Assembly: GCA_027886175.1 (NCBI GenBank)
Contig: JAJNNQ010000075.1
Span: 35,990,501 to 36,054,500 of the forward strand
Source: Phylloscopus collybita
Taxonomy: Eukaryota; Chordata; Aves; Passeriformes; Phylloscopidae
DNA length: 64,000 nt
Reading direction: 5' to 3'
Of this stretch, positions 1,207 through 54,320 are shown in pieces (the first letter of the stretch is position 1; each line of letters begins with the position of its first letter). The notes under the pieces were generated by a model. It searched no databases and was not told the DNA's origin. It was given only the letters and a program-made list of their open reading frames with translations. The position numbers were made by a program, and so were the translations under genes.

Positions 1207-1211
1207 ATACT
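1207..1211. repeat. Target-site duplication, left copy (ATACT)
   Basis: The five bases ATACT directly precede the TG that opens the left arm. The same five bases directly follow the last base of the right arm at 3050-3054. A 5-bp duplication is one of the sizes that retroviral integrases leave (4-6 bp depending on the lineage). Its presence at the outer edges of both inverted arms shows that the whole 1.84-kb structure went in as one unit, rather than being made by a later inversion with breakpoints outside it. Confidence 0.85.
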
Positions 1212-1468
1212 TGTCCTGGGTTGACGGAGCCTTATATCCCATATCTGGACTGGGTTGTTATGTCTAACAGCCAATGCTTTGCTGGCTGTGGCTTCTACTG
1301 CGCTTGCTGCTTTTGGCTTTGCTGCTGGCTGCTTGCTTGCTTGCTTGCTTGCTCCTGCTTGCTAATTTAGCCGCTTTTGCTGCAGGGAGGGGTGGTGGAG
1401 GTTTGTCTTAGGGGACTTCCTCTCGGAGGGTCTTCTAATTTGCCCAAACCAATACACTTTTTGGTACA
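1212..1468 (+). repeat. Left inverted arm, LTR-like (TG...CA)
   Basis: A 257-bp arm opens TGTCCTGGG and closes TTGGTACA. Against the right arm it shows one transition (T at 1287, C in the partner), one A/G difference in the closing TACA/TGCA, and a 4-base length difference beside the GCTT tract at 1331-1350. It contains a CCAAT motif at 1271-1275. I see no AATAAA or ATTAAA in either direction. The short length, TG/CA ends and 5-bp duplication suit an avian endogenous-retrovirus LTR. The inner edge continues CTTAGGTCCC, which does not look like a primer-binding site. Confidence 0.85.
1331..1350 (+). repeat. (GCTT)5 microsatellite inside left arm
   Basis: Five GCTT units are followed by GCTCCTGCTT. 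The right arm has six units (AAGC on the plus strand, 2907-2930) followed by a slightly longer spacer. This tract accounts for the only length difference between the arms. Confidence 0.85.
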
Positions 1469-2019
1469 CTTAGGTCCCAGATTATAGGATCAGAAAATTC
1501 CTTTAGAATTTGGCCTATATCTTCCCATTTCCCACTCCATTCAAGATTTCTCCTACTTGGTTTTGCCCCTGAATCAGAAGTCTCATTAGCCCCCTTGGAA
1601 ATCACAGCTTTCATCTTATGTAAGCTGCAGACAGTATAGAGGACACTCACTAAATTAAATACCAGAAAGATGGACTCTTTAACACTCAGGGGAAACTGAA
1701 CATTTTCTAACAGGGATATAAACAATTCATAGGAGAAGAGGGAAAGCAGAGGCTGAAAAAACTCCTCCCCCGCTTCTCCCCTAACAAACTGAGTGCTCAA
1801 CCATAATAACGAACCATCAAACATATTTACAGCCTTTCTGTAAATCATCACAAACAAGCCCAGCCCAATGAATATTTTGATTAGTGCCCCACGGCTACAC
1901 GAACTACGTATGAGGAGCAATACCAGAGCTATCTCCGGGTAAGGAAATAGCCCTAGGTACCACAGAAATAATAGAGTCTCAAAAGACCCTAGGGACCAAA
2001 AATATTGGCAGGCTTTCAC
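1435..2019 (-). CDS. Unrecognised hydrophobic open frame in inverted-LTR element
   Basis: The open frame encodes about 194 residues. The first usable codon next to the integrase stop is GTG (2019-2017), and the frame is open from 2031, so the true start is unknown; splicing or another route would be needed. I do not recognise the protein. It has strongly hydrophobic stretches near residues 13-37, 45-60 and 115-134, with a weaker one near 91-104, suggesting a multi-span membrane protein. A polar, charged C-terminal third follows. I see no envelope cleavage site, no CX6CC-like motif and no zinc knuckle. Its last residues and stop (TAG, 1437-1435) are encoded by the antisense strand of the left LTR-like arm, so the present C terminus exists only because the arm is inverted. 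It could be an accessory or residual 3' region of the parent retrovirus read in a chance frame. The length without stops in AT-rich surroundings is suggestive but not proof of coding. Confidence 0.4.
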   Translation of the reverse strand: MKACQYFWSLGSFETLLFLWYLGLFPYPEIALVLLLIRSSCSRGALIKIFIGLGLFVMIYRKAVNMFDGSLLWLSTQFVRGEAGEEFFQPLLSLFSYELFISLLENVQFPLSVKESIFLVFNLVSVLYTVCSLHKMKAVISKGANETSDSGAKPSRRNLEWSGKWEDIGQILKEFSDPIIWDLSVPKSVLVWAN

Positions 2020-2765
2020 CCCAACAAACTTTTAACACGGGCCACTGGGGCTTTATCTCCATCTACTACATTAAGGAGCTGAGACTGAGCAGGACCCCCT
2101 CGGTTGGTAGAACCTCGGGTGTTAACCAACCAGGTGGCCTTTGCTAAATGCTGCTCCCAATTTTTTAAGGACCCCCCACCCAATGCTTTCAGGGTGGTTT
2201 TTAACAACCCATTGTACCTCTCTATCTTACCTGCAGCTGGTGCATGGTAGGGGATATGGTACACCCACTCAATACCATGTTCCCTAGCCCAGTTTTTAAT
2301 AAGACTATTTTTAAAATGAGTCCCATTGTCTGACTCAATTCTCTCGGGCGTACCGTGTCTCCAAAGGACCTGCTTCTCAAGGCCCAGGATGGTGTTACGG
2401 GCTGTAGCATGGGATACAGGGTAGGTTTCCAACCATCCCGTGGTGGCTTCTACCATGGTCAGCACATGGCGCTTGCCTTGGCGGGTCTGAGGCAGTGTGA
2501 TGTAATCAATCTGCCAGGCCTCCCCATACTTATACTTAGACCACCGTCCACCGTACCAGAGGGGCTTCATCCGCTTGGCCTGCTTGATGGCAGCACACGT
2601 CTCACAGTCACGGATAACTTGAGAAATGCTGTCCATGGTTAGATCCACCCCTCGGTCTCGTGCCCACTTATAGGTGGCATCTCTACCTTGGTGACCTGAG
2701 GCATCATGGGCCCATCGTGCTAGGAACAACTCTCCCTTGTGCTCCCAGTCAAGATCTATTTTCAA
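2016..2765 (-). CDS. Endogenous-retrovirus integrase (partial pol)
   Basis: A 249-residue frame encodes a retroviral-type integrase. This enzyme trims the LTR ends of viral DNA and joins them to target DNA in the nucleus. Residues H20, H25, C54 and C57 form the N-terminal HHCC zinc motif. The catalytic triad is D87 (in WQIDY), D146 (in ESDNG) and E182 (in KIERYNG), with exactly 35 residues between the last two, as in DD35E integrases. The frame stops (TGA 2018-2016) soon after the core, so the usual C-terminal DNA-binding domain appears short or missing. There is no ATG at the N terminus; the frame is open back to 2891, inside the right arm. RNase H and reverse transcriptase, which normally precede integrase in pol, are absent, and the integrase region begins within about 30 bp of the arm. 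No frameshift or stop breaks the core. It resembles integrases of bird endogenous retroviruses; I cannot settle the class without a search. Confidence 0.85.
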   Translation of the reverse strand: MKIDLDWEHKGELFLARWAHDASGHQGRDATYKWARDRGVDLTMDSISQVIRDCETCAAIKQAKRMKPLWYGGRWSKYKYGEAWQIDYITLPQTRQGKRHVLTMVEATTGWLETYPVSHATARNTILGLEKQVLWRHGTPERIESDNGTHFKNSLIKNWAREHGIEWVYHIPYHAPAAGKIERYNGLLKTTLKALGGGSLKNWEQHLAKATWLVNTRGSTNRGGPAQSQLLNVVDGDKAPVARVKSLLG

Positions 2766-2788
2766 ATCCCCTATCTTTGCAGAGCCAA

Positions 2789-3049
2789 TGCACCAAAAAG
2801 TGTATTGGTTTGGGCAAATTAGAAGACCCTCCGAGAGGAAGTCCCCTAAGACAAACCTCCACCACCCCTCCCTGCAGCAAAAGCGGCTAAATTAGCAAGC
2901 AGGAGGAAGCAAGCAAGCAAGCAAGCAAGCAGCCAGCAGCAAAGCCAAAAGCAGCAAGCGCAGTAGAAGCCACGGCCAGCAAAGCATTGGCTGTTAGACA
3001 TAACAACCCAGTCCAGATATGGGATATAAGGCTCCGTCAACCCAGGACA
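2789..3049 (-). repeat. Right inverted arm, LTR-like (TG...CA read on minus strand)
   Basis: A 261-bp reverse complement of the left arm, with two substitutions and one 4-base indel between them. Read on the minus strand it lies 5' of the integrase in the sense direction, so it could serve as promoter LTR. Past its closing TGCA the sequence is TTGGCTCTGCAAAG. The TGG is reminiscent of a primer-binding site, but the integrase frame runs straight through it, so I do not call one. Confidence 0.85.
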
Positions 3050-3054
3050 ATACT
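3050..3054. repeat. Target-site duplication, right copy (ATACT)
   Basis: ATACT follows the final ACA of the right arm and matches the left copy exactly. Confidence 0.85.
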
Positions 3055-34696: not shown

Positions 34697-35075
34697 AGAA
34701 CATGAGAACCACAAAATGACTTTGGATGGAAGGGACCTTTAAGATCATTTATTCGAACCCACCCGCCATGGACAAGGACATCTTTTACTAGAGCAGGTTG
34801 CTCAAAGCCCCTTCCAATCTGGCCTTCATCCAGGGATGAAGAAGCCACTTGGGCAGATTGTTCCATTGTCTGTCCACCCTTATTGTGACAAATTTCTTCC
34901 TGTTTCTAATCTAAATCCTCTTTAGTCACTGCCCTCTTTCAGTGTAAAATCACTGCCACCACAAGCCTTCGTAAAACTCTCTCTCCATCTGCCCCACAGA
35001 AACTGTTCAGGCCAAAGCAAATGTCCCTGTATCATCTTTGTGGTTTTACTCCTCTGTTCATGATCCATCCTCTAC
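34697..35075 (-). mobile_element. CR1 LINE fragment, 5'-truncated
   Basis: Read on the minus strand this is the 3' end of a CR1 retrotransposon. The plus strand shows the usual reverse-complement landmarks: degenerate tail repeats near 34697-34718, then GGAAGGGACCTTTAAGATCAT, a CCCACCCGCCATGGACA-like segment, GGTTGCTCAAAGCCCCTTCC, and AATTTCTTCCTGTTTCTAAT. The right limit is approximate because similarity fades after about 35015. It retains no open reading frame and is an old, inactive copy. Confidence 0.85.
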
Positions 35076-44861: not shown

Positions 44862-45529
44862 AGCAGCAGCTCTGCAGAGAAGGACCTGGGGCTGCTGGTG
44901 AACAACATCTGTCCACGAGCCTGCAGTGTGCCCTCATGGTCAAGAAGACCAGTGGTGTCCTGAGCTGCCAGGAAGGGCACTGCCAGCAGACTGAGGGAGA
45001 TGATCCTGCCCCTCTCCTCAGTCCCAGTGAGCCTTCATCCAGAGTTCTGTGTGCAGTTCTGGGCTCCTCCTGGAGCAGGTCCAGCAGAGAGCTACTGAGT
45101 TGGTCAAGGGTGTGGAGAATCTCTCTTGCAAGGAAAGGCTGAGGGGGCTGGGCCTGTGCAGCCTAAAAAGAGGTGACTGAAGGGGACCTCTTAATGTGTA
45201 TAAATATCTGAGTGGGTAGATCAGTGGCTCCAAGAGGTTGGAGCCAAGCTCTTTTTGGTGGTGCCAACCAATAGAAGAAGAGACAATGGGCAGAAAGAGA
45301 TTCACTGGAAGCTCCTCCTGAACATGAGGAAGAATTTCCTTACCTTGCAGATGACAAAGCACTGGAGCAGATTGCCCAGAGAGGTTGTGGAGTCTCCCTC
45401 ACTGGAGATATTCAAGAACTGCTTTGATGCAATCCTGTGCTATGTGCTCCTGGATGTCCCTGCTTGAGCAGGGAGGCTGGATCAGAGGCCCCACTCTGGT
45501 CCTTCCAACCTGATCCATTCAATGATAGC
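44862..45529 (+). mobile_element. CR1 LINE fragment, 5'-truncated
   Basis: Plus-strand CR1 copy of about 670 bp containing the 3' end. Landmarks in order are GAGAAGGACCTGGGGCTGCTGG, a GCCAAGAAG-like segment, TTCTGTGTGCAGTTCTGGGC, GGAAAGGCTGAGGGGGCTGG, AACATGAGGAAGAATTTC, GCCCAGAGAGGTTGTGGAGTC, and the end TGGTCCTTCCAACCTGATCC followed by a decayed tail. Open frames inside are remnants and interrupted; no reverse transcriptase domain remains. Confidence 0.9.
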
Positions 45530-53624: not shown

Positions 53625-54320
53625 CACAGATATAGGCTGGGCAGAGAAGGGATTGAGAACAGCCTTGAGGAGAAGGACTTGGAGTGTCAGTAGATGAGAA
53701 GCTAAACATGATCTGTACTTGTGGTCCCGAAGGCCAGCTGAACCCTGGGCTGCATCACAGGAAGCACGGCCAGCAGGTCAGGGCAGCAGATTCTCCCTCT
53801 CTACTCCACTCTCATGAGACCTCACCTGGAATGTTGCATCCAGCTCTGGGGCCCCTAAAATAAAAACCTGGCAATGATGGAGCAAGTCCAGAGGGGAGCC
53901 ACAAATTTGCTCAAAGGGCTGGAAGTCTGCTCTGAAGCCAGGCTGAGACAGCTGGAGGTTGTTCAGCCTGGAGGAGAGAGAGTTCCCAGGACACCTTACT
54001 GCAGTCTTTAAGTACACAAATGGTGGGAGAGGGACATTTTACAAGAGCATGTAGTGATGGACAAGGGGGAATGGCCTCAGACTGAAAGAGGGTGAGTTTA
54101 CATTAGATACCAGGAAGAAATTCTTTGCCCAGCAGGTGGTGGAGCACTGGAACAAGCTGCCAGATATTGTAACTGCCCCATCCCTAGAAGTATCCAAGGC
54201 CAGAATGGATGGGGATTTGAGCAATATGGTCTTGTGGAAGGTGGCCCTACCCATGGCAGGAGGATCTGAACTAGATGATCTTTAAGGTCCCTTCCAACCC
54301 AGGCCATTCAATGATTCTAT
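53625..54320 (+). mobile_element. CR1 LINE fragment, 5'-truncated
   Basis: Plus-strand CR1 copy of about 690 bp with the 3' end. Landmarks are GCCTTGAGGAGAAGGACTTG, TGTTGCATCCAGCTCTGGGG, GGTTGTTCAGCCTGGAGGAG, ATACCAGGAAGAAATTCTTT, GTGGTGGAGCACTGGAACA, AGATGATCTTTAAGGTCCC and the terminal ATGATTCTATAAC, which is the short-repeat tail typical of CR1. No intact protein frame remains. Confidence 0.92.

Follow-up and report, generated by a model that had tools for sequence, protein, structure and literature searches.

In the window, i.e., the whole 64-kb stretch of DNA analysed, which is probably part of a songbird chromosome, an 1838-bp unit at positions 1212-3049 carries an interior enclosed by two LTR-like arms in inverted orientation, with ATACT lying directly outside both ends. 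The order of its parts is LTR> IN> gag-region> <LTR, where IN is an integrase fragment and the gag region is a second ORF whose identity is predicted. The features are as follows:

1207..1211, no strand: left target-site duplication ATACT, read from the sequence
1212..1468, plus strand: left arm, LTR-like, TG...CA, with the putative U3-type edge outermost, 98% identical to the inverted right arm
1469..1477, no strand: junction 3, 0-9 bp between the gag-region ORF and the LTR edge, placed by the tblastn edges of relatives
1475..2024, minus strand: N-terminal fragment of an ERV gag-region ORF (predicted gag), open, placed by matches to relatives
2019..2024, no strand: junction 2, the seam of IN and gag region with the overlap TTGGGG, placed by homology edges from both sides
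2019..2783, minus strand: integrase fragment that has the H2C2 domain and the catalytic D,D-35-E domain but no C-terminal domain, placed by domain and relative matches
2784..2788, minus strand: junction 1, TTGGC between the LTR CA edge and the IN homology, read from the sequence
2789..3049, minus strand: right arm, LTR-like, TG...CA, inverted with respect to the left arm, placed by sequence comparison
3050..3054, no strand: right target-site duplication ATACT, read from the sequence

The first-pass annotation had described a unit of this length with inverted arms of 257 and 261 bp, TG...CA ends and ATACT at both outer flanks, and its coordinates and sequence were confirmed throughout. TG is outermost in both arms, both outer edges of the unit read TGTCCTGGG inward, and on the inner side both arms stop at the same CA, with the interior neighbours following within ~9 bp. 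The left arm (257 bp) and the right arm (261 bp) differ by 2 substitutions per 257 aligned columns and by one 4-bp indel, which sits in a CTTG run; one of these substitutions is located 3 bp away from the inner edge, and the common inner CA edge could therefore be due to chance. The inverted match of the arms scores 448 bits, against a best score of 38.1 when the 2.7-kb region was resampled 100 times under a first-order Markov model, while the chance of a 5-bp match at fixed outer edges is ~0.0013. Since the outer 5-mers are identical and the outer edges alike, the unit was most simply inserted whole. Two independent solo LTRs were also considered and were rejected, as the inner 5-mers CTTAG and GCCAA differ from ATACT. 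A CTTG-type microsatellite is present in both arms (1319-1363 and 2894-2942) and is one 4-bp unit longer in one arm than in the other. At assumed rates of 1.9e-9 to 4.5e-9 per site per year, the 2 substitutions in 257 columns would correspond to an age of ~0.9-2.0 million years, which is an upper bound if the arms already differed at insertion; the open state of both interior frames is in line with a young unit.

The LTR ends, the primer-binding site (PBS), the U3/U5 polarity and the junctions were read from the window together with the proteins of relatives. Promoter motifs are equivocal, with TATAT at 22, CCAAT at 60 and AATACA at 240 on the LTR sense strand and TATAA on the other strand. 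The outer TG edge is taken as U3 because the PBS-like TTGG follows the other edge and because the right arm is oriented like the integrase; the TGG of junction 1 would match the first bases of a primer-binding site. The distance from the arm to IN sequence is 5 bp, which leaves no space for a complete 18-nt primer site, while no purine run in the interior exceeds 10 bp, and those of that length do not adjoin an arm. Given both the 5-bp gap and the lack of an arm-adjacent purine run, canonical reverse transcription of the unit RNA should fail.

The minus-strand integrase frame previously reported inside the unit was borne out by matches to the rve (E 6e-17) and H2C2 (E 8e-6) domains. The catalytic D, D and E stand at residues 93, 152 and 188 of the 255-aa fragment, with 35 residues separating the last two, and the best solved-structure match is the integrase of PFV (foamy virus). 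Of the 638 integrase relatives that passed the cut-off, the best 120 were compared; the top match among them is Hirundo rustica P0001 (~90% identity), and Zosterops P0010 and P0042 are 89-91% identical. A tree was built from 47 sequences, comprising the window integrase and 46 relatives that span at least residues 8-190. In it the window integrase joins Zosterops borbonicus P0010 and P0042 (0.996), while its smallest distances are to Hirundo P0001-P0003, not to Zosterops. The fragment terminates in ...SLLG, a stretch present in 36 of 127 fetched proteins, and all 36 extend beyond it. Similarly, 55 of the best 120 of 638 relatives reach the integrase C edge and 54 of these extend further, by 4 to 240 residues; the sole relative stopping there, P0036, has terminal residues that differ from those of the window. 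The C-terminal domain has therefore been lost from the window integrase. As an observation on one relative, Zosterops borbonicus P0010 has a tandem repeat of ~50 residues at its RNase H/integrase border, behind a gag p24 C-terminal domain, which might stem from an error in the gene model or from a further template switch.

The second frame, open over 1435-2031 on the minus strand, corresponds to another ORF of related bird ERVs. Seven matches were obtained, among which P0121 of Poecile atricapillus has the best E-value (57.7% over residues 10-194, E 7e-62) and P0127 of Zosterops the highest identity (87% over 47 aa). No Pfam family was matched by this ORF, and in a PDB search with its alignment the E-values of the three matches were between 0.7 and 1. 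It is predicted to be a gag region, gag being the name that we presume for its family. In the Zosterops gene model P0097, a P0123-like segment occupies residues 45-107 and IN follows from ~224, which places this ORF before IN; the resemblance, which is to the C-terminal portion of P0123, is weak (32% in 68 columns of a charged/proline-rich stretch, E 8e-6 to 8e-4) and comes from one gene model. The locus tags of Zosterops P0116 (integrase) and P0126 (second ORF) are two numbers apart, a spacing in line with a single provirus. If the second ORF is gag, the IN-before-gag order of the unit is apparently the reverse of the native order, and if it natively lies downstream of pol, just a deletion and an inverted LTR would be left to explain. 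Env was considered for this ORF and is not favoured, on the weak evidence of the P0097 gene model. The grouping of the integrase with Zosterops P0010 and P0042, together with a top-identity gag-region match in Zosterops P0127, fits one source virus; against a single Zosterops-like source stand the shortest IN distances, which point to Hirundo, and the best gag-region E-value, which is that of Poecile.

At junction 1, the IN homology begins at 2783 in 56 of the 65 matches that start above 2740, and one starts at 2810. Among the best 120 of 638 relatives, 58 reach the N-edge of IN, and the residues upstream of it were examined in 57; a pol-type tail is found there in 55, other sequence in P0014 and P0097, and the LTR-derived peptide of the window in none of these 57 annotated proteins. 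Junction 1 is thus secondary. A protein search for junction 1 was uninformative, as it returned 0 candidates and missed even those relatives, P0004 among them, that share IN words there. At junction 2, the IN homology stops at 2019 in 41 of the 63 matches ending below 2060, four of the 63 having tails to 1959, 1992, 1998 and 2007, while the gag-region homology begins at 2022 (P0121). The overlap TTGGGG agrees with both parents, giving a microhomology of ~4-7 bp, and junction 2 was absent from all 36 proteins with the IN C-edge motif among the 127 fetched. At junction 3, the homology of six of the seven gag-region relatives stops between 1465 and 1477 (at 1474 in three), with P0125 ending earlier; the LTR CA edge is at 1468, and 0-9 bp can be assigned to neither side. 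Beyond this point, all six gag-region relatives continue into sequence of their own for 32 to 178 residues, and the inverted-LTR tail of the window is present in none of these six annotated proteins.

Elsewhere in the window, 53959-54231 (with stops) and 45240-45449 each resemble the non-integrase tail of P0112 at ~46%, and 54196-54308 matches 34715-34826 in inverted orientation at 77%. The degenerate repeats at 53959-54308, 45240-45449 and 34715-34826 are presumably remnants of CR1-type LINEs. No match was obtained when the window was scanned for Rfam families and tRNAs.

The related bird viruses, which we take to be of the ERVL/foamy-like type, resemble the unit in their integrase (~90% identity for Hirundo rustica P0001), in the second ORF, in TG...CA ends and in a 5-bp duplication, but the unit differs from them in that its LTRs are inverted, IN comes before the predicted gag and most of the genome is absent. 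As in a class III-like ERV, TG...CA LTRs stand at both ends and the target-site duplication (ATACT, 5 bp) falls within 4-6 bp, which is also the retroviral range given in a passage of PMC3790719, with 4 bp for the foamy virus PFV. The arms, however, are inverted where an ERV has direct LTRs. As to the gag-pol order, the IN fragment precedes the second ORF, whose gag label is predicted from one gene model with no profile match. The unit shares inverted ends and a target duplication with terminal-inverted-repeat (TIR) transposons, in which either an intact transposase or a non-autonomous family of many copies is expected; the C-terminal domain is missing from its integrase. DIRS-1, as described in excerpts of PMC5633606, has inverted LTRs around retroelement genes as in the unit, but it relies on a tyrosine recombinase together with an internal complementary region, where the unit has a DDE integrase fragment and is flanked by a 5-bp duplication. 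DIRS elements are defined by a tyrosine recombinase and the unit contains rve and H2C2 integrase domains; DIRS membership was rejected on recombinase type (PMC5633606). In the literature consulted on integrated inverted-LTR proviruses, no unit like that of the window was found. Excerpts of a locust Gypsy study, with an inverted LTR in an intron, and of a yeast re-replication study, with inverted LTR pairs adjoining Ty elements, describe structures not comparable to the unit.

Generally, a U3 edge arises where the plus strand is primed at the polypurine tract, strong-stop DNA stops at the U5/PBS border, and a normal provirus uses one U3 end and one U5 end. On balance, and with little better than even confidence, the unit is ascribed to a single insertion of an aberrant product of reverse transcription, which a helper integrase would have joined to the chromosome via two U3 ends. 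The end pieces would be two plus-strand strong-stop DNAs (U3-R-U5) primed at the polypurine tract, which would supply both U3 edges. Such DNAs begin at a fixed place, the U3 edge, and stop at another, the U5/PBS border, and edges of these two kinds are present in both arms. The first strong-stop DNA might mis-prime in the gag region in place of the normal transfer, after which reverse transcriptase would switch by microhomology from gag to IN and then from IN to the U5/PBS border, while the second strong-stop DNA would close the opposite end of the unit; an intact integrase from another element would then join both U3 ends to the chromosome, 5 bp apart. All the steps that lead from cDNA to insertion are inferred. 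Two strong-stop DNAs are favoured because both arms end at the same inner point, which is what defined termini would produce. The earlier proposal of integration via two identical outer LTR edges stands as the simplest reading of the identical 5-bp flanks and of a TG edge that occurs twice, while the U3 identity of those edges is what we infer.

Joining through two U3 ends has a parallel in the concerted-integration assays of Rous sarcoma virus (RSV), an established in vitro system for an avian integrase, in which, according to passages of PMC3579926, donors with a single, modified and more active U3 end were used and U3 ends were joined in concert without a U5 end, as proposed for the unit; those are test-tube reactions with a modified end, whereas the unit is a natural chromosomal structure consistent with such joining. 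When host enzymes join the second end, large duplications or deletions usually replace the short 5-bp repeat, as stated in an excerpt of PMC5041404, and the clean 5-mer therefore favours integrase at both ends. Template switching is described in part of PMC3187697 as a source of deletions and insertions, with nonhomologous events at least 1000-fold below homologous ones. The favoured model requires several rare nonhomologous recombination events, which counts against it. Transfer of strong-stop DNA between genomes has been proposed, in a passage of PMC9278108, for asymmetric HIV LTRs.

Two viral cDNAs might instead each have given one U3 end to one integrase complex, their broken other ends being joined by the host together with the IN and gag-region fragments. 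The separate single-U3-end donors of the RSV assays (excerpts of PMC3579926) speak for such an origin, and the overlap at junction 2 is also compatible with end joining; both cDNAs, however, would have to break by chance near the same point at the LTR inner edge, which strong-stop ends explain freely, and this origin is regarded as rather unlikely. An assembly error or a post-insertion rearrangement of an ordinary provirus is quite unlikely: inverted repeats are prone to misassembly, but such an event must hit the LTR edges exactly, bring IN beside the gag region and leave matching ATACT outside. Autointegration of retroviruses and Ty1 (Shoemaker 1980, as cited in passages of PMC3148978 and PMC4751563) would have the U5 end attack its own gag region, yielding an inverted-LTR form of which a derivative was integrated later. 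Its products resemble the unit in having two inverted LTRs and an LTR edge joined to internal sequence (part of PMC4751563), internally rearranged circles are also formed (part of PMC3148978), and the LTR CA edge meets gag-region sequence almost directly at junction 3. The products are nevertheless extrachromosomal circles (PMC4751563), whereas the unit is linear and chromosomal, and a linear form with both like U3 edges outermost and ATACT flanking them is not expected; moreover, TTGGC follows CA at junction 1 and the overlap at junction 2 is unlike an integrase join. Autointegration is thus considered very unlikely.

The first-pass annotation had further suggested that the unit behaves like a TIR transposon, and this was not supported. 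As a mobile family, DNA units with two U3 ends would move in a TIR-like manner in trans by the integrase of a related ERV, and many copies with different 5-bp duplications would be expected. The inverted ends, the integrase fragment, the clean 5-bp duplication and the two open frames are in its favour. To our knowledge, however, retroviral integrases do not excise proviruses; a full PBS does not fit into the 5 bp between arm and IN, and no second copy of the unit is found inside the 64-kb window. Among annotated proteins of relatives with usable flanks, junctions 1, 2 and 3 are absent (0/57, 0/36 and 0/6, respectively). No DNA relatives were found in virus and prokaryote contig collections, a result uninformative on copy number in birds. 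The integrase of the unit lacks the C-terminal domain, and RSV integrase 1-214, which likewise lacks it, was inactive and gave no product in the assays excerpted from PMC3579926. A mobile family is accordingly held to be the most improbable of these origins.

The unit is likely a rearranged ERV rather than a novel kind of transposon, and its present copy is probably inert. LTR finders that require direct repeats would miss inverted-LTR insertions of this kind, the frequency of which would be easy to measure.
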